Origin: Paracoccaceae bacterium
GTDB lineage: Bacteria > Pseudomonadota > Alphaproteobacteria > Rhodobacterales > Rhodobacteraceae
DNA length: 64,000 bases
Assembly (NCBI GenBank): GCA_002708925.1
Contig: PAPN01000006.1
Span: forward strand, 58,648 to 122,647
Direction of reading: 5' to 3'
Position numbers and translations under genes: made by a program. Shown piece by piece: positions 1,547 through 11,865 of this stretch (position 1 is the first letter of the stretch; the number at the start of each line of letters is the position of its first letter). The notes beneath the pieces are model-generated. The model worked only from the letters and a program-made list of their open reading frames with translations. It searched no databases and was not told where the DNA came from.

Positions 1547-2329
1547 TTGCAGAACCGGTATCATATCATTCGCCCGAACGGGGCCAGCGCCCCCTGCGCC
1601 GAATCCCTGCTGGCTCTGCGCGCGGATCTGGATCATTGCCTTGATCTGGCCAGCAAATGGCATCTGGCACGCGGCTTTTTGGCCGGGCTGGGAGTCGATC
1701 TGCCGATCTATATGTACCTGCGCCCCTCGGCTCCGCAGGATCGGCCGATGATTTTCTCGGCCATGCCCGATTGGTGGGCCGACCACTATCTAGAGGCAGA
1801 GCTGGCCGCCACCGACCCCTTTTTCAAGACCTGCCACACCCTGGCCCCAGTCCCCACCGGGCGCGATTATGTTCAGGAAAATGCCTATATGCTGTCCGCG
1901 GAGGAGGCCGAATTTATCCGCCAGGCAGGCGAGACCGGGCTGCGCAGCGGGGTGTCCTGCACGGTGCGGCGGGCCAATGCGGGGCATTTCGGCGGCTGGA
2001 ACTTCGGCTCGTGCCTGCCCCGCCCGGAATACGAGGCGCTCTTGCGTGAACACGGGGCCGGGCTGCATCTGGCCGGGCTGCTGGTGCATCAGTCCTTTCA
2101 AGAAAGCGCGGCGCAGACCGCCCCGCCGCCCTCATGCCTGTCCCCGCGCGAACGCGAATGCCTGCTCTGGCTGGCGCAAGGGCTGCGCACGGCCCAAATC
2201 GCCGATCAGATCGGGCTGGCCAGCGTCACGGTCGATCTGCACCTGAAAGGCGCGCGCAAAAAACTGGAGGCCGCCACCCGAGAAGAGGCCCTGGCCAAGG
2301 CGATCATGTCGGGTGAAATCAGCCTTTAG
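1547..2329 (+). CDS. LuxR-type regulator with autoinducer-binding domain (LuxR solo)
   Basis: This 260-residue protein has the two-domain layout of acyl-homoserine-lactone receptors. The N-terminal ligand domain keeps the W77-xxx-Y81 pair and D90-P91 at the same spacing as W57, Y61, D70 and P71 of TraR, and a GLRSGVS segment near residue 131. The second conserved Trp (TraR W85) is not evident. The C-terminal GerE helix-turn-helix spans about 195-260, beginning LSPRERECLLWLAQG. The frame is closed by a TGA just upstream, so the TTG at 1547 is the first possible start; a later start would cut the ligand domain. No luxI synthase is present in the window, so it is a solo here. A near-perfect lux box lies 37 bases after its stop codon, upstream of the next two genes. 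Confidence 0.88.
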   Translation: MQNRYHIIRPNGASAPCAESLLALRADLDHCLDLASKWHLARGFLAGLGVDLPIYMYLRPSAPQDRPMIFSAMPDWWADHYLEAELAATDPFFKTCHTLAPVPTGRDYVQENAYMLSAEEAEFIRQAGETGLRSGVSCTVRRANAGHFGGWNFGSCLPRPEYEALLREHGAGLHLAGLLVHQSFQESAAQTAPPPSCLSPRERECLLWLAQGLRTAQIADQIGLASVTVDLHLKGARKKLEAATREEALAKAIMSGEISL

Positions 2330-2365
2330 GCCGCGCGCGGGCAGCCCCCGCCCCTGCCGGCTGAC

Positions 2366-2385
2366 ACCTATGGATTTCCATAGGT
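2366..2385. promoter_or_regulatory. lux-box-like 20-bp palindrome
   Basis: The arms ACCTATGGA and TCCATAGGT are perfect inverted repeats separated by TT. This gives a 20-bp element with the ACCT...AGGT ends and the dimensions of a lux box. It lies between the LuxR gene and the operon starting at 2505. A half-site CTATGG recurs at 2438-2443. Binding by the neighbouring LuxR protein is inference. Confidence 0.75.
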
Positions 2386-2409
2386 CCATGTTTTTAATGG
2401 ATTTTTGAA

Positions 2410-2440
2410 TTGACAAGCCCGGACCTGCCCCCCTTATCTA
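2410..2440 (+). promoter_or_regulatory. Candidate sigma-70 promoter downstream of the lux box
   Basis: A consensus -35 TTGACA (2410-2415) is followed after 18-19 bases by a weak -10 (TTATCT or TATCTA, 2434-2440). The lux box centre would then be about 70 bases upstream of transcription start, a class I activator distance. The weak -10 fits an activator-dependent promoter. Confidence 0.5.
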
Positions 2441-2504
2441 TGGGCATTTACGCAGGCCAATTACTGCCCTGAAAGGTCTGCAACCATTTCGATTGGAGCC
2501 CTTA

Positions 2505-4799
2505 ATGCTGCGCATTCCAAAGGCCATTTTGGCCTGTTTGATCCTTGTGTTTCCGCATATCGGCCAGGCTTTCACCCTCTCGCCCGATCTTGAAACCCGC
2601 GTCGCGCGGAACAGCCAGATTCTAAGGGATCTCGCTGACAGTATCCCCGCGCATCTCCACGACCCCGAGGCCCTGGCCGACCATCTGGACTATCAGATTT
2701 CGGCCGCCGCCGAGCACGTCCGGACGCAAATCCATTATGATCCCTACCTGGGCGTTTTGCGCGGCCCCTCGGGGACGATTTCGGCGCAGGCCGGCTCGTC
2801 CTGGGATCAGGCCGTTCTGCTGGCCGGGCTGATCAACACCATGGCAGGCGAGGCCCAGCTGGTGCGCGGCGCCCTATCTGCCGAGGATGCGCAGCGCTTG
2901 CTGGGGCAGGCTCTGGCCCCGCGCCCCAGATTCGCGCCTTTGATCTCCGAGGACAGGCTAGAGACGCTGCTGACCCCTGCGCTGGGGGCTGGCTGGGTGG
3001 CCCGCGAACGCGCGCGGCTGGCCGGACAATCCCACAATCCCCGTCAGACCATCGACGCCCAGGCGCGTCTTTTGCAGCACTCCCTGGATCAAAACCAGCT
3101 GCACGCCCCCCCAAACCTGAAGGCGCATCTTTCTGAAATCGCTCGGAATTACGTGTGGGTACGGTATCGGGAAACGCCCTCGGACGCGTGGATCGACGTG
3201 CATCCGGCCTTCGGTAAGCTGCGCGCACCGCAGGTGCAGCCCACCGCGTATCTGGCCGATCAGGTGCCACAAGAGCAATTGCATAAAATCGCGGTCCGCA
3301 TGGATATCGAACGCCACGAGGCCGGGCGCTTGCATCGCGAATCCCTGATGCAGACCTATGAGACCCCGGTGGCCAATCAAGCCTTGCGGCAACTAACCAT
3401 CGGCATTTCCCCGGCCACCGTCGGCACGGATCAGGAAGCCCCCTATTTCGTGCCCGTTCTGAATGGGCAGGCCGCGCCGGACGCGCGCGCCTTTGGCCTG
3501 TTGGGGCTGACGGTCAAAGCGGCGGATGCCGCCGCAGGCCCCGACATTTTCCAGACGATTTCAGGCAAGCTGGCAGGGGGGCAGGGCATTCTGAGCGATA
3601 CCTCAGCCCCCGAAAACACCCCAGGCCAAGGGGCCCCGCGTCTGACCGGCGCTCTGCTGACCATCAGCACCTGGGGCCCTGGCCTGCCCCGCCGGGACGA
3701 GACCCGCCGCCTGTTCGATTTCCGCGATGAAAGGCCGGAAACCGCCAGCTCTCATATCACGTTCGAAGGCATCGTGGACATCAGAACCGGCGCTGAAAAC
3801 GGCGCGTGGCGGACGATTGCCGGGCTGCGCAGCCAGGCTCAGGCGCTTGGCCAGATCCCGTATTACGCAGCCCTGATGCGCCAACAGACTTCTGCCGAAG
3901 AGCTGATCGCAACCGGGGCCATCAGCTATGGGACGTCCCCGATGCCCTGGTCGGACATGGCCTTTTTGGGGCAGATGCTGGCCCCCGATTTTCACCCTCA
4001 GGCCCGCGCCGTGCGCACCGGGGCCTTCGTCAGTATGCGCCGCGCTTTCGAGCAGACAACCCAGGCCGGGCTGCTGGTCACGCGGATGGATATTCTGCAC
4101 GCGCCGGTGATGGGGCTGGCGCGCACGCAGGGGACGGCCACGCAACAGGCAGAAGGGCAGCAAACGGGCGGGCACCTGATCGCCGCCCCCGAACAGGCCC
4201 TGCGGCAGGGCCTGAAAGAAACCCTGATCGAGCAATACTTCTCCACCTCGGACAATTCGGAATTCTGGATGCAGGGCCCTGTCGAAACCGTGCTGCGCAG
4301 CCCCGGCGATCTGAAAAACTGGCTGGAGGGGCGCGCAATCGACACGCTGACCACGGATCGCATGAACGCAGATCTGAAACATGGGCGGGCGCTGTTACTG
4401 GTGGGGCAGGATTCGGATCTGCGCTGGTGGCGGTTCGATCCCTCAACCGGGCATATCCTGGGGATGAGCGCCGCCGGGGGCTCGGAATTCGTGGAATATC
4501 TGACCGGAGCCATCAGCCTGGGCATCGCGATGGCCTTTGCGATCAAGGGCGGGAATGACTGTCAGGCCAATTACGCGGGCGACGACGACATGACGGGGTG
4601 CTGTCTGGTCGGGAACAGTATGCTGGCCGTCGCCGGCGGGGCCATCGGCGCCGGGGCCGGCGTGGCCATCGCTGGCCTGGGGCTCAGCGCGCTTGGCGGT
4701 CTGGCTGTGGGCGTGACATTCGAATTCGTTCTGGATTCGGTCATGCTGATCCCCGGCACCGCCACCGAGGGCGTCTGCAACACGGTTCTGGGGCGGTGA
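2505..4799 (+). CDS. Secreted/envelope protein with degenerate transglutaminase-like domain
   Basis: The ATG at 2505 has a GGAG six bases upstream, so it is preferred over the in-frame TTG at 2493; it gives 764 residues. A signal peptide is clear (MLRIPKAILACLILVFPHIGQA, cut after about residue 22). Residues about 50-240 resemble the transglutaminase core: the segment GSSWDQAVLLAGLINTM (97-113) sits where the active-site Cys normally lies, NYVWVRY (215-221) where the His lies, and WIDVHPAFG (229-237) at the Asp strand. Cys and His are replaced by Ser/Trp and Tyr, so enzyme activity is unlikely. Near residue 640 is a WWRFDPSTGHILG motif. The C-terminus has a hydrophobic segment (about 660-680), a short loop with three Cys, then a long glycine-rich hydrophobic stretch (about 704-748), suggesting membrane insertion. 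It lies 2 bases upstream of the VWA gene, so the two are co-transcribed. The function is unknown. Confidence 0.72.
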   Translation: MLRIPKAILACLILVFPHIGQAFTLSPDLETRVARNSQILRDLADSIPAHLHDPEALADHLDYQISAAAEHVRTQIHYDPYLGVLRGPSGTISAQAGSSWDQAVLLAGLINTMAGEAQLVRGALSAEDAQRLLGQALAPRPRFAPLISEDRLETLLTPALGAGWVARERARLAGQSHNPRQTIDAQARLLQHSLDQNQLHAPPNLKAHLSEIARNYVWVRYRETPSDAWIDVHPAFGKLRAPQVQPTAYLADQVPQEQLHKIAVRMDIERHEAGRLHRESLMQTYETPVANQALRQLTIGISPATVGTDQEAPYFVPVLNGQAAPDARAFGLLGLTVKAADAAAGPDIFQTISGKLAGGQGILSDTSAPENTPGQGAPRLTGALLTISTWGPGLPRRDETRRLFDFRDERPETASSHITFEGIVDIRTGAENGAWRTIAGLRSQAQALGQIPYYAALMRQQTSAEELIATGAISYGTSPMPWSDMAFLGQMLAPDFHPQARAVRTGAFVSMRRAFEQTTQAGLLVTRMDILHAPVMGLARTQGTATQQAEGQQTGGHLIAAPEQALRQGLKETLIEQYFSTSDNSEFWMQGPVETVLRSPGDLKNWLEGRAIDTLTTDRMNADLKHGRALLLVGQDSDLRWWRFDPSTGHILGMSAAGGSEFVEYLTGAISLGIAMAFAIKGGNDCQANYAGDDDMTGCCLVGNSMLAVAGGAIGAGAGVAIAGLGLSALGGLAVGVTFEFVLDSVMLIPGTATEGVCNTVLGR

Positions 4800-4801
4800 T
4801 C

Positions 4802-7800
4802 ATGCGTATTGCTGTCTCGGCCCTGCTGATCGCTCTTTTGCCCATGCCCGGCCTGTCCGAGGGGCTTGTCGATCTGTCCGCCATGCCCGGCGCGCAGCCT
4901 GATACGCCTCCGGTTTCGGCCCGGCACATCGCCCTGCCGCCAGATGGCAGCTATGAAACGCAGCTCGATCTGAGCGGATCTGCCCTGTTTCAGCTGGACG
5001 CCGACGATCCGACCGCGCTGTATGAAATCTCGGCCGAGGCGATGCAGCCGATCGGCCTGACCATCGAGCTGAACCGGCTGAGCCTGAATGAAAAGGGGCA
5101 GGCCACCAAGCGGGAGGTGCTGCTGTCGGACAGCTCTTTGGGGATGGGGGACCGGGTGGCGCGGCTGCGGCCCAGTCTGCTGGTGCCGGGGACGTATTTT
5201 ATCGGGCTGGCCGCGATGGCCCAGACACGGACAAGCCTGCGCATTCGCCGCCTGGCCGCGCCTGTGTTCGTCACCGACGATCAGAAAATCGGCCCCGACA
5301 GCGCCGGGGCCGCGCAGCCAGGCAGCCTGTGCCTGACCCCGGATTTGCCGGCGGGCACGCCAGAAAGCCCGCAAGTGCATGATATCGCCCTGATCGGTGC
5401 GCCGCAGCAGCATCTTGAACTCTGGCTAACCGCAGAAGGCCAGGAACTGGCCCGCCGCGCAGGCGAGGGGCGGATCGCTCTGACCGGGCTGAAACCTATT
5501 GAAAATGCACAGTTTTGCCTGCGTGCGCGCAACGCCCCGCCAGACCACCCCGGCCATTGGCGTTTGCAAATTTCGCGCTCGGATGACGCCGGGCACGAGG
5601 TGGATGACAACCGGCCCTCTCCCCTGCCCGTGGGGAAGACAATTCAGGCCATTCTGGACGGATCGGACCGCGACACCTTTCAATTGCCTGCCCTGCCGGA
5701 TCAGAGGGGCTATGCGCTGTCGCTACAGGCCGAAGCCCCCCTGCGCCTATGTCTGAACGCACCGCAGGGCGAGGAATGCTGGACCGGCGCAGATCTGAAC
5801 ATCGCGCCCACCGTGGCAGGCGATCTGGTGCTGTCCCGTGGCCGCGCCGAGGGCACGCGCTACCGGCTGAGTGCGCGTGAAATCGCGATACCCAAACGCG
5901 CCCGCCCCGAACCCAACCAGGATCCGACCAGCTGGCCGCCGCTGGACGGTCGCGTTCTGGTTCAGGGACACCTGACCCAAGAAGAGCGCGACAGCTTTGC
6001 CTTTCTGACCGGGGATGTCGCGCAGATGTGGCGACTGCAAGTCACGGGCGACGGGGTAAGCCAGGCTCTGCTGACGGATGCCCTGGGCGAGACAGCCGCA
6101 GACATCCGGCGCAATGCCCGTCACGGGCCCCGTTTACCGGCGCGCGATCTCTATCTGCCGGCGGGGACGGCGCAGATCAGCCTGCGCGGCCTTGGGGACT
6201 ATCGCGTTCTGGCCAAACCGCTTGGCCCGCCCCGGCCCAATTCCGAGCGCGAACCGAACGATGACGCCGCCAAGCCCCGCCGACTGACGATTGGCACACC
6301 GCTGGTTGGTACGCTGCGCGACGGGGACCGCGATCATTTCGGATTTTACCTCAGACGCGCGGCGGAAATGCGCGTCACCGTCAGCCCTCCGGCGGGCGCG
6401 CGGTATGAGCTGGACATCAGCAGCGCCGGGCGGCCCTCTTCTGCCGGGTTTCACCGCGAAAAAGCCACCGCCCCGCATCTGGAGAAAACGGTCCTGCTGC
6501 CCCCCGGCGAGCATGTCTTGCGACTGCTTCCGCTGGACCCAAGCCCCGCCGAATACAGCGTTGCGATCGACTATGTGAACCCGTTTGGCGACGCCGAGAC
6601 CGCTCAGATGTCTGCGGTTGCTCCGACGCTTCGGGCTTTCTCGCGCTTTGCGCAGTCCGGCCAGTTGCCCGTCACGATCCGCAACCTGTCGGATCGGCAA
6701 ATTCAGGGCCGTTTGCAGGGCTGGTCTGCCGATCCGGCGCTGCACCTGTCGGCTCAGGCCCTGACGCTTGGGCCGGGGCAGGTGCAAACCGTGCCCATGG
6801 TCTTTGCTGCGGCGCCGGATTTGAACGCCGGAAAACTGCCCGTGTTTGTGGCGATCACCGACGCGCAGGGGCAGGCGCTGGGGTCTGCGCCTGTGGCGTT
6901 TGCAGCCACGCCCGAGGCCCCCGCTCAGGCTCCGGCACAGGCAAAACACGTGCCCGACGCGCTCCGAGGTGGCATCAACCTGGCTCAGGCCGCGCTGGGG
7001 GCCAGATGGCTGCCCACCGACACGGCCCAGATTGACGAAACCGGAGACTACGCCCGCGGCAACCCGGCGCAGGCGCGGGGTTTTCCTGTGCTGCTGAACG
7101 GCGTGATTGCGCAGGGCACCCCCCCTGTGGACCAAGAGGCCTATCTGTCCGCCAACAACGCCCCGCACAGTCTGGCCCCGGTTCTGGCCTTACCAGAGGG
7201 GCGGGAATTTCCCGTGGCCGGCATCGCGATTGACACACGGATGCTGGCGGCAGGGGACGCGTTGCACCGCTTTGCTGTCGATCTGTCGCACGATGGCCAA
7301 AGCTGGGCCGAGGCCCTGACCGGCACCCATGATCTGTGGGGGCAAACCGCCTATTACACATTGCCAGACGGGCCCCGGATGGCGCGTTTTGTCCGGCTCC
7401 GAGCGCTGGATCGGCGGCGGCCTCCGACCGGGCAGATCGCCGTGAACGGATTCGAAGTCATCGCCCAGCCCGGCCATTCGGGGCTGGGGCCGCTCAATCT
7501 GGCCGATCGCAGGCTGGGTGGCTGGGCCAGCGGCGGCCGTCAGCATCTGCTGGGCCCCGGTTTTCTGCACGCTCCGATCCGGCCCGACCAGCCGGCAAAC
7601 CAGCTGATCGCCCCCGAGGGCACCGCCGATCACAACGTGATTTTCAGCTTCCTGAACACCCGCTCTGCGCAGCTGGCAGCGCTGGAGTTCACCTACCCGC
7701 ACACCCTGCCCGATGCGCCGAATTTCGCAGCAACTGCCGTGGTCCAGCCGCTGCTGAACACGCCGCTGGATGCCCCCGCCAAGCCCGTTACAATCGGGCT

Positions 7801-9679
7801 GCCAACCGCCCCAAAACCCGGAGAAATCATACAGCTGCCCTGGCCCGGCACGCTGCCTCTGCGCGGGTTGCGCATCAGTTTTCAGGCCCAAAACCCGGAA
7901 ACCACGCAGCTGCACCTGCCGACTCATATCGCGGTTCTGGAACGCCCCGAAGGCAAGGATTATCTATCCGCGTTAGGCACTTACGGGCAGTATGCGACAC
8001 AGCGCACGCCTCCTGCCCCCCGGTCAGAGACACAGCGCGCGCAGCGCGTGCGCCCGCTGCCGCTGAATGACAAGTTTCAGCCCGGACAGGTCGAATTCGC
8101 CAGGCATCAGGACATCTGGAGCCTGGAAATCACACAGCCCGCCGCCCGTCTGGACATCCGCACCCAGGGCGCGCCGGGATTTGTGCCGACCGTGGTGCTC
8201 AGGGATGGGACGGGCACGCGTATTGACCCGCTTCCGTCCGAACGCCCTGACGATCCGCAGGTCACGCTGCACAGCTTTGCCCTGACGGCTGGGCACTATC
8301 GTGTGGAAATCCAAGAGTCCCGCCGCAACACGGTTTTCCTGATTGATCAAAGCCCCTCGGTGCTGGGGTATCTGCCGCTGATCCGCCGCGGGGTGATTGA
8401 TTTCGCCGATGCGCTGCAACCGGGCCGGGACCGCGTGAATTTCCGGGCTCTGGGGCGTGATTGGGCGACGCGGGACTGGTTCTCGGACACGGTTCTGCTG
8501 CGCAAGGCCCTGGCCACATACCCCCGCGAGGGCACCAGCACAGCCGAGGCCAGCCTGATCGACGCCGCCGACAAACTGCAAGATCAAGAGGGCAGCCGCG
8601 CGATCGTGCTGATCACCGACGCGGACAGCGATTATCATGGGGAGTTGCCGCAAAAACTGGCCGCCTCGGGCGCGCGGATTTACGTGATCAAGGTCAGCTC
8701 GGGCGGGATGTGGCAGGATCCGACCACCGCGCAACATGCTGCGGCCTTCTGGGCGGGGGCGACGGGCGGCGAGGTCTGGCCCGTGCTGCGCAGCGAGGAT
8801 ATTTCGACCGGGTACGCCCGTGTCGCGGCCCGCCTGCTGGGCCCCAAATCTTACCGGATCGCGGCCAGCGCGCAGCCGGTCAGCCTTGAGCCCGGACGTC
8901 TGCGCGTGCTGGAAACGGCCCGCGCGCAGAACGATGACCCGGCCGCGCGCCCTGCTGCCATGCTGATTATCTTCGACGCTTCGGGCAGTATGCTCAGACG
9001 GCTGGACGGACGCCGCCGGATCGAGATCGCGCGCGACTCGGTCAGCGCTTTTCTGGCCGGTTTGTCCGCCCAAAGCCCCAAAGAGCAGCCCCTGTCCGTG
9101 GGCTTGCGCGTGTTTGGCGGCCCACCTGAATCCTGCCAGACCCGCCTGGCCGTCGCCCCCTCTGCCGATCTGAGCCAGACAGAGGCCCAGGTGCAGCTGA
9201 TCCGTCCACAGAACAAGGCAAAAACCGCCATTGGCGCCTCGCTCAGGGCGGCGCGGCAGGATCTGGCCAATTGGACAGGCCCCGCCAGCATCCTGCTGAT
9301 CACCGATGGCGAAGAAACCTGCGAGGGCGACCCGCTGGCGGAAATTCAGGCCCTGCGTGCAGCGGGTATCGACACGCAGGTGGATGTGGTCAGCTTTGCT
9401 CTGGACCCTGAAATTGACCGCGCCACGTTCCACAGCTGGGCGCAGGCCGGTGGCGGTATCTTTATCGAGGCCGACTCGGGCGCGGATCTGCTGGCAGCGC
9501 TGCGCGAGACCCGCAAGCTGGGATTCGCGCTGTATCAGAAGGGAAAACTGATCAGCCGGGGGCAAGCCGGCGGGGCGGAAATCCCGCTGAAACCGGGCTG
9601 GTACGAAGTGCTGTTCGATGGCGCCGAAATCCCTGTGCCGGTTCAGATTTTACCGGGCCAGGAAACCGTGATCGACTGA
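4802..9679 (+). CDS. Giant secreted protein with PPC-like repeats, discoidin-like region and two VWA domains
   Basis: The ATG at 4802 follows the previous stop by 2 bases and opens a signal peptide (MRIAVSALLIALLPMPGLSEG), giving 1,625 residues. Three PPC-like beta-sandwich repeats, each with an acidic/Asn turn and a 'G...L...DRD.F' strand, begin near residues 260, 370 and 480. A discoidin-like (F5/8 type C) region lies at about 755-890. VWA domain 1 starts near 1175 with the MIDAS sequence DQSPS and continues to VLITDADSD. VWA domain 2 starts near 1384 with the canonical DASGSM, with a supporting Thr-containing segment and LLITDGEE. Both are metal-binding type. No sortase, autotransporter or clear membrane anchor is seen, so it is probably periplasmic or exported. 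The likely role, from domains only, is adhesion or assembly of a surface complex with its operon partner. Confidence 0.75.
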   Translation: MRIAVSALLIALLPMPGLSEGLVDLSAMPGAQPDTPPVSARHIALPPDGSYETQLDLSGSALFQLDADDPTALYEISAEAMQPIGLTIELNRLSLNEKGQATKREVLLSDSSLGMGDRVARLRPSLLVPGTYFIGLAAMAQTRTSLRIRRLAAPVFVTDDQKIGPDSAGAAQPGSLCLTPDLPAGTPESPQVHDIALIGAPQQHLELWLTAEGQELARRAGEGRIALTGLKPIENAQFCLRARNAPPDHPGHWRLQISRSDDAGHEVDDNRPSPLPVGKTIQAILDGSDRDTFQLPALPDQRGYALSLQAEAPLRLCLNAPQGEECWTGADLNIAPTVAGDLVLSRGRAEGTRYRLSAREIAIPKRARPEPNQDPTSWPPLDGRVLVQGHLTQEERDSFAFLTGDVAQMWRLQVTGDGVSQALLTDALGETAADIRRNARHGPRLPARDLYLPAGTAQISLRGLGDYRVLAKPLGPPRPNSEREPNDDAAKPRRLTIGTPLVGTLRDGDRDHFGFYLRRAAEMRVTVSPPAGARYELDISSAGRPSSAGFHREKATAPHLEKTVLLPPGEHVLRLLPLDPSPAEYSVAIDYVNPFGDAETAQMSAVAPTLRAFSRFAQSGQLPVTIRNLSDRQIQGRLQGWSADPALHLSAQALTLGPGQVQTVPMVFAAAPDLNAGKLPVFVAITDAQGQALGSAPVAFAATPEAPAQAPAQAKHVPDALRGGINLAQAALGARWLPTDTAQIDETGDYARGNPAQARGFPVLLNGVIAQGTPPVDQEAYLSANNAPHSLAPVLALPEGREFPVAGIAIDTRMLAAGDALHRFAVDLSHDGQSWAEALTGTHDLWGQTAYYTLPDGPRMARFVRLRALDRRRPPTGQIAVNGFEVIAQPGHSGLGPLNLADRRLGGWASGGRQHLLGPGFLHAPIRPDQPANQLIAPEGTADHNVIFSFLNTRSAQLAALEFTYPHTLPDAPNFAATAVVQPLLNTPLDAPAKPVTIGLPTAPKPGEIIQLPWPGTLPLRGLRISFQAQNPETTQLHLPTHIAVLERPEGKDYLSALGTYGQYATQRTPPAPRSETQRAQRVRPLPLNDKFQPGQVEFARHQDIWSLEITQPAARLDIRTQGAPGFVPTVVLRDGTGTRIDPLPSERPDDPQVTLHSFALTAGHYRVEIQESRRNTVFLIDQSPSVLGYLPLIRRGVIDFADALQPGRDRVNFRALGRDWATRDWFSDTVLLRKALATYPREGTSTAEASLIDAADKLQDQEGSRAIVLITDADSDYHGELPQKLAASGARIYVIKVSSGGMWQDPTTAQHAAAFWAGATGGEVWPVLRSEDISTGYARVAARLLGPKSYRIAASAQPVSLEPGRLRVLETARAQNDDPAARPAAMLIIFDASGSMLRRLDGRRRIEIARDSVSAFLAGLSAQSPKEQPLSVGLRVFGGPPESCQTRLAVAPSADLSQTEAQVQLIRPQNKAKTAIGASLRAARQDLANWTGPASILLITDGEETCEGDPLAEIQALRAAGIDTQVDVVSFALDPEIDRATFHSWAQAGGGIFIEADSGADLLAALRETRKLGFALYQKGKLISRGQAGGAEIPLKPGWYEVLFDGAEIPVPVQILPGQETVID

Positions 9680-9696: not shown

Positions 9697-9721
9697 CACA
9701 TGTTCAAGGCACATGTTCAGG
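9697..9721. repeat. Tandem direct repeat at a convergent junction
   Basis: CACATGTTCAAGG is followed at once by CACATGTTCAGG. The pair covers the short space between the VWA gene stop (9679) and the end of the opposing Popeye-like gene (9717), and overlaps the latter's last codons. No hairpin terminator with a T-run is visible here. Confidence 0.6.
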
Positions 9722-10439
9722 ACACAAGTCGGGCCTCGGACTGCCGTTTCGCTGGCGGCACCGGCGCGTGGCTGTGCGGCCAGCTGCGCGCCAATTTGTG
9801 GCTCATGTCCTTGTTGAACATCGCCGAAACCGCATTCGCCAAAGGCAAGGACCGATCCATCATCCGATACAGCCGCGCGCGATCCCAGCGCACATACTGC
9901 GCCCCCGCCCCCAACAGAACCGAGGCGCTGGCAACGGCCCCGCGCCCCTGAACGAAGGAAATCTCGCATAGGAACTGCTGCGGCTGAATGCGTATTCTCT
10001 GCCCCGAGCGGCTGAGGAAGACCGGGCCCTTTTGCACGAAATACAGCGCTTCGGGCTCAAACCCCTGGTGGCACAGCTCTTGGGGGGCTTCGGTTTCGTG
10101 CCAGGTGGCGCAACGCATGATCCGCCGGAACTGGCCCGGCGTCAGGGTTGGGAAATGCCCATACAGCTCTTTATAGTCGTGCGACATGCCGATCGTCGAA
10201 CGATCCATGACCGACCGCAGAATCGAGTAGACATTCGCGATCGCAATGCAGGTGCTGGCATAGATCGCATCCCACAAGGGCGTGTCCGCGATGGTGAAAT
10301 AATACAGCAGATAGCACCCGGTTCCGGCCAGCAGAAAGGTCCGCAGCAACAGCCCTTCGCGCATCAACAGGCCGATCACATAGAACAGCAGCGCGCCATT
10401 GGCGAAAAGAGACGGAGAAAGAGCGATTTCAGTCGGCAT
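9717..10439 (-). CDS. Popeye-domain-like membrane cyclic-nucleotide-binding protein
   Basis: The 240-residue protein begins with about three hydrophobic helices (residues 10-75) and continues as a cyclic-nucleotide-binding beta-roll (about 105-205). The order and several motifs match Popeye (POPDC) proteins: an HDYKELY linker after the helices, QFLCEISF at the phosphate-binding cassette position, YVRWDRARLYRMM, and a C-terminal NAVSAMFNKDMSHKLA helix. The usual arginine of a CRP-type cassette is not evident and the vertebrate DSPE and FQVT motifs are altered, so ligand preference is uncertain. It lies 100 bases downstream of an adenylate cyclase on the same strand, which suggests a cAMP receptor at the inner membrane. 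The Popeye assignment is by eye. Confidence 0.68.
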   Translation of the reverse strand: MPTEIALSPSLFANGALLFYVIGLLMREGLLLRTFLLAGTGCYLLYYFTIADTPLWDAIYASTCIAIANVYSILRSVMDRSTIGMSHDYKELYGHFPTLTPGQFRRIMRCATWHETEAPQELCHQGFEPEALYFVQKGPVFLSRSGQRIRIQPQQFLCEISFVQGRGAVASASVLLGAGAQYVRWDRARLYRMMDRSLPLANAVSAMFNKDMSHKLARSWPHSHAPVPPAKRQSEARLVS

Positions 10440-10539
10440 CGGTGCAATCTTTTTATCAGATGGTTAAGATTGTCCGATCCCCGGATCCGAAAACAAGTCG
10501 GGAATGCCTTACCTGCCCCCGGCGCAGATTCCACCAGAC

Positions 10540-11865
10540 CTAGGGGCGCAGCGTCCAGATTGCGACCTCGCCCAACCCCTTGAGCGTCAGCATCCGCGGG
10601 CCCTCGACTTGCAGCGCCCTTCCGGCCAGCGCCCGAGTCTGCCCGGACAGTTGCACACTGTTCCGAGGGGCCGTCGCCTGAAGTCTCTGGGCCAGATTGA
10701 CCGTGCCGCCCCAGATATCGTAATGCGGCCGCGTGCGCCCCATGACCCCGGCAATCACCGGGCCGGAATGCACGCCCACCCGCACACCCAGATCCAGCCC
10801 TTCGCGATGTGCGAAATCCCGAACCGCACGCACGATTTCAGCCCCCAGCTGACACAGGGCGGCCGCATGGTCCGGATTGGCCTGACTGACCCCCGCAACC
10901 GCAAGATAGCCATCCCCCAGCGATTTGATCTTCTCTGCGCCATGCGCCTGGGTCAGCCGGTCAAATTCGCCAAACAGCACGTCCAGCATCCGCACCAGAG
11001 CAGCAGGAGTCTGGGTGTCCGCCAGCTTGGAGAACCCCTCCAGATCCGCGAACAGAACGCTGGCCTGCGGAACATGATCCACGATGGTCTGCGCGTCCTT
11101 TTCTTTCAGCCGATCAATGACATGATCGGGATAGACCGCCCGCATCAGGCGATCGACCTGCTGCTTTTCCCGCCCCAGGGCCATGTTGGCCCGCCGCAAT
11201 TGCCGATGAGCTGAACGGAACAGGAAATACAGCAGGCATGTGACCGCAGCAAAGGCGATCCCCTCGACCAGACCCAGCGGTTTTTTCCACGGGCTGTGGA
11301 ACAGATACCCCTGCGGGTTCACTGCGGATCGGGCGGACTCGAGACTGACCAGCGGCAGGATTTCATCCAGCATGGCCAGTCCAACAACCCCGATCAGGCA
11401 CAGCCAGAACCACGGGACAGACCGACGCGGCCCGAACACGACAACCGCCGCACAGGGCACCACCAGAAAGGCCAGAACATCGCCTTCGCGCGTGCCATTG
11501 AGCAGCACAAAGAACCCCATCAGCGACAGATAAGCCGGCACAAAGATGCGAAACAGCGCCTCGACCGAACGCAGCCGCCAGAACGCCAGAAGGGACAGCA
11601 GCTCGACCCCGATGATCACCCCGTCGAAAATTTTCAGAAAATCCGAGCGTTCAGGCACCAGAAAATAACTGAGCGAGACACAGAATGTCGCCAGCACCAC
11701 CACCACCGACATCGCTTTGAGATCGCGCAGATGCACCGGATCGTGTGGCACCTGCCCCAGCGTGATCAGATCGCTTAATCGAGCCCGCCTGCGCGGAGCT
11801 GTCTTCGTCGCCCGTGTCAACCCCGTCATCCAAATCTGCGGATGATACGGCGTAACCTCGGCCAA
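10540..11865 (-). CDS. Membrane class III adenylate cyclase
   Basis: The protein makes cAMP from ATP. From a TTG at 11865 it is 441 residues; an in-frame ATG at 11829 is an alternative start. Residues 50-215 form about six transmembrane helices, 235-262 the transducer helix (LMRAVYPDHVIDRLKEK), and 265-441 the cyclase homology domain. All catalytic positions are visible: metal-binding Asp274 (FADLEGF) and Asp318 (SLGDGY), adenine-selecting Lys314 and Asp383 (YDIWG), and transition-state Asn390 and Arg394 (NLAQR). It should therefore be active as an adenylate rather than guanylate cyclase. It is first in a two-gene transcription unit with the Popeye-like protein. Confidence 0.92.
   Translation of the reverse strand: MAEVTPYHPQIWMTGLTRATKTAPRRRARLSDLITLGQVPHDPVHLRDLKAMSVVVVLATFCVSLSYFLVPERSDFLKIFDGVIIGVELLSLLAFWRLRSVEALFRIFVPAYLSLMGFFVLLNGTREGDVLAFLVVPCAAVVVFGPRRSVPWFWLCLIGVVGLAMLDEILPLVSLESARSAVNPQGYLFHSPWKKPLGLVEGIAFAAVTCLLYFLFRSAHRQLRRANMALGREKQQVDRLMRAVYPDHVIDRLKEKDAQTIVDHVPQASVLFADLEGFSKLADTQTPAALVRMLDVLFGEFDRLTQAHGAEKIKSLGDGYLAVAGVSQANPDHAAALCQLGAEIVRAVRDFAHREGLDLGVRVGVHSGPVIAGVMGRTRPHYDIWGGTVNLAQRLQATAPRNSVQLSGQTRALAGRALQVEGPRMLTLKGLGEVAIWTLRP

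Follow-up and report, generated by a model that had tools for sequence, protein, structure and literature searches.

An orphan LuxR-type regulator with an operator-like box beside a conserved pair of genes for large, apparently exported proteins in a Paracoccaceae bacterium

Introduction

The LuxR solos described in two accounts (PMC4338825, PMC10134790) combine an Autoind_bind with a GerE domain, have no adjacent luxI gene and are accompanied by a 20-bp palindrome in the neighbouring gap. The same combination is found in the locus described here, which is located at positions 1547 to 9679 of a 64,000-nucleotide stretch of DNA from a Paracoccaceae bacterium (hereafter termed the window) and which consists of a gene for a LuxR-type regulator, a palindrome and a two-gene operon encoding large, apparently exported proteins. 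With respect to the solos in these accounts, the locus differs by the GG(A/T)TTTCC core of its palindrome, by the large exported proteins encoded next to it, by the presence of luxI genes elsewhere in the same genome and by a signal pocket that lacks a tryptophan. For alphaproteobacterial marine strains, a survey of LuxR solos from 2015 describes promoter palindromes without the CT(N12)AG pattern (PMC4338825), which may overlap with the element of the window.

The first of the exported proteins, comprising 764 residues, shares within residues 49-260 the fold of LapG and other transglutaminase-like proteins, from which it differs by its much greater length and by Ser/Ala at the position of the catalytic cysteine. 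The second, a giant of 1,625 residues, contains two consecutive VWA domains, as does the mussel byssus proximal thread matrix protein 1, although the placement of the domains differs (with a whole-length root-mean-square deviation above 20 Å) and the giant adds discoidin-, Ig- and PPC-like parts. RTX repeats, as known from type I-secreted giants, are found in the putative targets of the same LuxR subgroup in genome G133 and in Thalassospira, whereas the proteins of the window carry apparent signal peptides and no RTX match.

The palindrome has the 20-bp length, the dyad and the CT-N12-AG ends of the canonical lux box (NNCT-N12-AGNN), and its inner bases differ from the canonical consensus. To our knowledge, LuxR solos are numerous and their operator, target and signal are seldom known together. 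In the open-access literature, we found no record of ACCTATGG in connection with LuxR, of this box or of the two-gene pair, and nothing that joins a VWA domain to LuxR quorum sensing in Rhodobacter. Our analysis leans, with limited confidence, towards an orphan LuxR that binds the box at 2366-2385 and controls, in response to a small-molecule signal, an operon exporting a pair of proteins for surface or matrix adhesion.

Results

An operator-like palindrome next to an orphan LuxR gene

The window forms part of contig C20 of a draft genome of 3.42 Mb, which is 83% complete and 5% contaminated. The features of the locus are:

1547 to 2329, forward strand: orphan LuxR-type regulator of 260 residues with a TTG start (Pfam Autoind_bind and GerE, both above cut-off)
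2366 to 2385, forward strand: operator-like 20-bp palindrome (lux box of NNCT-N12-AGNN form) with counterparts near related LuxR genes
2505 to 4799, forward strand: exported transglutaminase/LapG-fold pseudoenzyme of 764 residues with a hydrophobic C-terminal stretch (assigned from Transglut_core in relatives, fold and Cys position)
2649 to 3284, forward strand: transglutaminase-like domain, residues 49-260 of the 764-residue protein (model range covered by structural matches)
4802 to 9679, forward strand: giant exported protein of 1,625 residues with PPC-like repeats (by eye), an Ig-like part, a discoidin-like part and two VWA domains
7199 to 7411, forward strand: discoidin (F5/8 type C)-like stretch, residues 800-870 (Pfam match below cut-off, relatives, fold)
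8309 to 8881, forward strand: first VWA domain, about residues 1170-1360, limits by eye (second VWA stretch; integrin I-domain matches)
8939 to 9511, forward strand: second VWA domain, about residues 1380-1570, limits by eye (best VWA_2 stretch 1387-1504; Z 19-22)

The regulator matches Autoind_bind with 52.8 bits and GerE with 50.6 bits, both above cut-off, and its nearest solved chains are RhlR, TraR, SdiA and LasR, which bears out its assignment as a LuxR-type receptor in a preliminary description of the DNA. The same description saw no luxI in view, which holds within the 64 kb of the window but not for the genome, where three LuxI-family matches are located on contigs C37, C50 and C55 (with none on C20) and one of them adjoins another LuxR. 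In total, the genome contains four autoinducer-domain matches above cut-off. Since luxI genes are found on other contigs, the regulator, which has no adjacent luxI, is better described as an orphan than as a strict solo, a term that would require a genome without a cognate luxI. In an alignment of eight LuxR proteins, we scored pocket residues whose importance for the binding of acyl-homoserine lactones we take as given; a Tyr, an Asp-Pro and a Gly are retained in all eight, and the Trp at the position of the FWEP motif of LasR is absent from each of them, including the protein of the window (by eye).

The gap of 175 bp between the LuxR stop and the ATG of the following gene harbors the initially described palindrome, ACCTATGGA-TT-TCCATAGGT, whose two 9-bp arms around a 2-nt spacer are perfect. 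It begins 37 bp past the LuxR stop and ends 119 bp ahead of the ATG of the operon. When the gap was shuffled 5000 times, 6 of the resulting sequences contained arms of this quality with the same spacer, and the site is the sole one of its kind in the 64 kb, where 11 perfect palindromes are found if spacers of 0-6 nt are allowed. No second place in the window comes within three mismatches (0 expected from 100 shuffles). Among the CT-N12-AG sites in seven LuxI/LuxR stretches of the same genome, the highest symmetry, 8 of 10 positions, is reached by three.

The box recurs near related LuxR genes of other genomes

In view of its recurrence next to related LuxR genes in the genomes of four other, distantly related bacteria, the palindrome has the appearance of a LuxR operator. 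Loss of the palindrome in relatives, which the preliminary description had named as a reason to abandon its proposal, is thus not what we observe. With the window counted, the boxes of the five genomes contain 0, 1, 2, 3 and 5 mismatches to that of the window, and the LuxR proteins of the other loci are 28-36% identical to the one described here. In genome G021, the LuxR gene (with an identity of 28-30% that varies with the alignment) and a gene for an 866-residue VWA protein are divergently oriented, and the gap between them contains ACATAAGGATTTCCTTATCT, a variant that departs from the canonical lux box by not keeping CT-N12-AG. The string TANGGATTTCCNTA is found once each in this genome and in that of the window, at their LuxR loci, with 0 and 1 occurrences of its backward control. 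Genome G345 shows a LuxR gene divergent from a gene for a 1,221-residue VWA protein, with a gene of 300 codons in front, and the box ACCTATGGTTTTCCTTAGAT; in G363, the divergent gene encodes a VWA protein of 928 residues and the box reads ACCTATGGATTTCCGTAGAT. Finally, the Thalassospira marina plasmid pCSC3H3 contains three LuxR genes in tandem, divergent from a 10.7-kb gene whose product carries RTX repeats, with ACCTATGGTTTTCCATAGGT between them. The tandem genes on this plasmid (7983-10630 of locus L106) are closely related, with a strong box ahead of the first and a weaker one (at 9808) ahead of the third.

In all five loci, the box is oriented with its TTT core reading towards the large, apparently exported protein. 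Fourteen of its 20 columns are invariant and any two boxes share 14-19 of 20 bases, compared with 1-8 of 20 in either 20-bp flank, the flanking DNA not being conserved. In a leave-one-out procedure, the best scores within 600 bp of LuxR range from 16.0 to 28.3 at the five loci and do not exceed 11.6 at the 19 other LuxR genes counted as controls. The other fetched DNA, 931 kb in total, contains three 20-mers at five mismatches from the window box and none at four or fewer.

The context of the LuxR genes is also distinctive. A VWA gene is located within 5 kb at four of six loci of the LuxR subgroup compared with 0 of 25 other LuxR loci, and the remaining two subgroup loci, in G133 and Thalassospira, adjoin RTX-containing giants. 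The controls are those among 35 loci that gave a LuxR frame under our overlap rule (uncounted: L069, L114, L115, L117, L127, L128, L129, L132, L147 and L150). On the tree, the subgroup is clustered, with 0 of 500 shuffles as low.

These data also bear on whether the palindrome is merely the intrinsic terminator of the LuxR gene, which we regard as very improbable. Its proximity to the LuxR stop, a predicted hairpin of -10.8 kcal/mol with a run of T after it and a terminator-like score in a simple pattern scan would all suit such a role. Conversely, at the four other loci the box is placed 5' of LuxR, beside an oppositely read gene, and thus does not constitute a shared LuxR terminator; the hairpin is weak at three of them (-3.4 to -6.9), and it is the sequence of the box, beyond mere pairing, that is conserved. 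A shared operator accounts for five loci and a terminator for one, and the palindrome of the window could do both.

Several observations weigh against the assignment as a conserved LuxR operator driving the operon. A sigma-70-type promoter was not matched anywhere in 2200-2600. The nearest LuxR relative, in G133 (49% identical), has no box site above background: a site with five mismatches about 116 bp before the first start of the giant gene scores 13.4, which is within background. The LuxR neighbour in this genome encodes a 3,121-residue protein with FG-GAP, Calx-beta, VWD and RTX parts. In its exact form, the box ACCTATGGNNNNCCATAGGT is found in 1 of 376 genomes of the class, the one of the window, with no occurrence of the reversed control in this genome or in the others listed. 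The box of G345 and G363 (loci L103 and L104) is overlapped by the longest frames there, and its intergenic placement hinges on the choice of start codons. Finally, the LuxR subgroup requires two changes on the tree and forms a single clade in 2% of 200 bootstrap trees; we thus refer to the box-bearing set as a subgroup rather than a proven clade.

Wider searches with a LuxR profile delimit the distribution of the box. At E 1e-25, the profile matched 6 of 345 genomes of the family, including that of the window, the sixth (G050) being clearly weaker with 92 bits, and 12 of 228 genomes of the class, again including that of the window. In nine of the 11 other class genomes (eight plus G064, leaving out two), there is no intergenic box: the best score of 15.4 is located inside the LuxR gene of L149 and the rest reach at most 9.6, with a best score of 2.8 within 600 bp of LuxR in G064 (L113). 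Three of the LuxR genes in this set have LuxI-like neighbours (by eye). A search of the genus of G363 retrieved one of two genomes, G363 itself. Besides Thalassospira, plasmid searches found LuxR loci in Phaeobacter and Qingshengfaniella, both without a box.

The operon encodes a pseudoenzyme and a giant VWA protein

The two large genes are separated by 2 bp and apparent signal peptides start both proteins (by eye). The 764-residue protein of the window obtains no Pfam match on its own, whereas Transglut_core is matched by 9 of 20 aligned relatives. Where a transglutaminase has its active-site cysteine, corresponding to residue 99 of the window protein, all 20 carry Ser or Ala. Its structural model, with a mean predicted local distance difference test (pLDDT) score of 72.6, gave nothing at E 0.001 or better in Foldseek, and VIA-align, which was then informative, related residues 49-260 to Legionella LapG (4fgq, 4fgo), to 3isr and to others with Z of 9.0-9.4 over 119-127 residues; folds missing from this comparison carry no meaning. 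Since LapG, 3isr and the other matches are tied, LapG appears in the model as a fold neighbour and not as a family assignment. The transglutaminase fold without catalytic residues that had been described initially is recovered with regard to the fold and the Cys position, and the sequence, with its missing catalytic Cys, speaks against an active transglutaminase or LapG protease. The model places low-confidence helices at residues 672-745, a stretch that is hydrophobic by eye.

The giant matches VWA_2 with 47.3 bits in two stretches and contains a VWA match with a DxSxS motif, and its F5/8 type C match of 16.8 bits is beneath the cut-off of 28.2. Among 14 relatives, VWA_2 is found in all and F5/8 type C in 13 at E 0.01. 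A model of residues 600-1625 (mean pLDDT 76.6) found its best Foldseek matches in a mussel matrix protein with tandem VWA domains (E 2.4e-15) and in discoidin-containing proteins such as factor VIII and a sialidase. Single VWA domains reach Z of 19-22, and integrin I-domains match at model residues 573-751. Of the composition proposed in the preliminary description, the two VWA domains stand on both Pfam and fold and the discoidin-like region, below cut-off in the giant itself, is matched in the relatives and by fold, whereas the PPC-like repeats, without a Pfam match in the giant, remain a reading of the sequence by eye.

The matrix-type folds of the giant count in favour of surface or matrix adhesion, a role that is suggested by the models. 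Alternatively, the exported pair might constitute a cell-envelope assembly or chaperone system, which we consider rather unlikely. The helices at 672-745 could tie the first protein to the inner membrane, the fold matches include membrane VWA proteins of the BatB and aerotolerance types, and the partner of the first protein varies, as in G044 with an RHS protein nearby; the best matches of the giant are nevertheless discoidin folds and a tandem-VWA matrix protein, and sister LuxR targets bear RTX repeats.

NCBIfam models matched neither exported protein. An anti-phage defence function was considered and dropped, as no PADLOC model matched either of the two up to E 1.

The gene pair is found elsewhere without LuxR or box

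Relatives of the 764-residue protein are found in 5 of 345 genomes of the family and in 2 of 101 relatives, counting the own genome in each, and in none of 8 other genomes of the genus. Of 385 genomes of the class, its profile matched only that of the window, indicating that the module is sparse. When public genome contigs were scanned with an alignment of four sequences of the protein, 23 loci were obtained, two of which (L084 and L090) come from one isolate. A relative of the giant is adjacent in 16 of them (13 downstream, 3 upstream), assigned by their record titles to Pseudomonadota, Desulfobulbaceae or Desulfobulbus, and Thermomicrobiales. No partner is seen in the other seven, some of which are on short contigs; a weak match on the opposite strand at L074 was excluded as partner. 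Together with L056, L057 and L058, the last being a plasmid of Indioceanicola profundi, the other pair loci amount to 19 from three phyla (with L055 and L076, whose contigs are of equal length and are taken as one, counted once), and the two large genes are thus a real conserved pair. On plasmids, a search with the 764-residue protein matched nothing, and a search with the giant gave 88 records, none covering more than 80% of the query. Only Indioceanicola, whose divergent copy surfaced in this way, reached 61%, and the other matches listed concern the VWA part only.

In the DNA examined around the 19 other pair loci, a LuxR profile retrieved no LuxR gene at E 1e-4; 13 of these loci offer a fair test of the upstream side, and six (L075, L077, L078, L082, L086 and L087) have less than 2 kb of upstream DNA. 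The single LuxR-profile match among the 23 contig loci, at L089, concerns a helix-turn-helix only and lacks the partner. At 27 loci of the first gene without an autoinducer-type LuxR, box-like sites score at most 13.7, compared with 30.4 for the window; L055 and L076 are both within this set and within the 931 kb of control DNA. The preliminary description had treated LuxR, box and pair as one system. This view is not sustained, since the two genes occur at 19 other loci without LuxR or box in the DNA examined, an outcome that the description itself had named as refuting it; the module is not intrinsically LuxR-controlled and the LuxR cassette has joined it here. The pair is a cassette of its own, and the regulator with its box appears, from the sequences, to be another one that also fronts different large exported proteins in other Alphaproteobacteria.

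With two separable cassettes, the box could be a LuxR operator and the operon a bystander or mainly controlled otherwise, with the box elsewhere chiefly serving autoregulation of luxR. Apart from the pair loci without LuxR, it would agree with this that the box elsewhere is located in the gap of a divergent gene pair, where it might act on luxR only. We judge it improbable, since the box of the window is downstream of luxR and ahead of the operon, where it cannot be a luxR promoter site, and its orientation towards the large gene is identical at the five loci.

Variants of the module were observed in other contexts. In G044 (L050, 6607-17950), a pseudoenzyme relative is near proteins of 1,648 residues with RHS repeats and of 1,307 residues, without a giant VWA partner, and a second pseudoenzyme copy is interrupted by a TAG. 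On an Acidobacteria contig (L088, 7046-12040), the pseudoenzyme region is within a frame of 1,218 residues that follows a TIR-like gene (by eye). In G021 (L049, 9940-11793), a 617-residue protein related to the C-terminal region of the giant, with 32% identity over residues 1021-1625, adjoins genes resembling an insertion-sequence pair (by eye) and is perhaps a truncated remnant.

Next to the operon, the window contains on the reverse strand (9717-11865) a gene for a Popeye-domain-like protein (POPDC1-3, 30.1 bits, cut-off 28.1) beside a gene whose product matches the adenylate/guanylate cyclase catalytic domain with 146.7 bits; the two might constitute a maker and a receptor of a cyclic nucleotide.

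Discussion

What we have computed is a conserved box, a recurring order of LuxR, box and large gene, a conserved gene pair and the absence of an active-site cysteine. We infer binding, activation, a signal, an export route, a role in adhesion and a contact between the two proteins, as follows. Bound to its signal, which may be an own AHL, a foreign AHL or another compound, LuxR would bind the 20-bp box at 2366-2385 and control, most likely activate, the downstream operon. Both products would be exported, one being a transglutaminase/LapG-fold protein without catalytic activity and the other the giant. The pseudoenzyme, whose C-terminus perhaps anchors it in the membrane, may hold or order its partner, whose discoidin and VWA domains would contact sugars or matrix, so that the pair most likely acts in surface or matrix adhesion.

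In a wider and more doubtful proposal, which we advance tentatively, a LuxR subgroup not described so far, whose particular operator is centred on ACCTATGG(A/T)TTTCC, would serve as a dedicated chemical switch of giant extracellular proteins in Alphaproteobacteria, and would here have captured a phylum-spanning module consisting of a dead LapG-fold holder and a VWA/discoidin protein.

As regulator, operator and target class can be named from the sequence, gel shifts, reporters and ligand screens can begin directly. The separation from its local regulation sets apart a widespread, uncharacterized exported pair of pseudoenzyme and tandem-VWA giant that can be studied separately. In the organism described here, the locus offers a connection, open to testing, between the sensing of a chemical signal and the cell surface.

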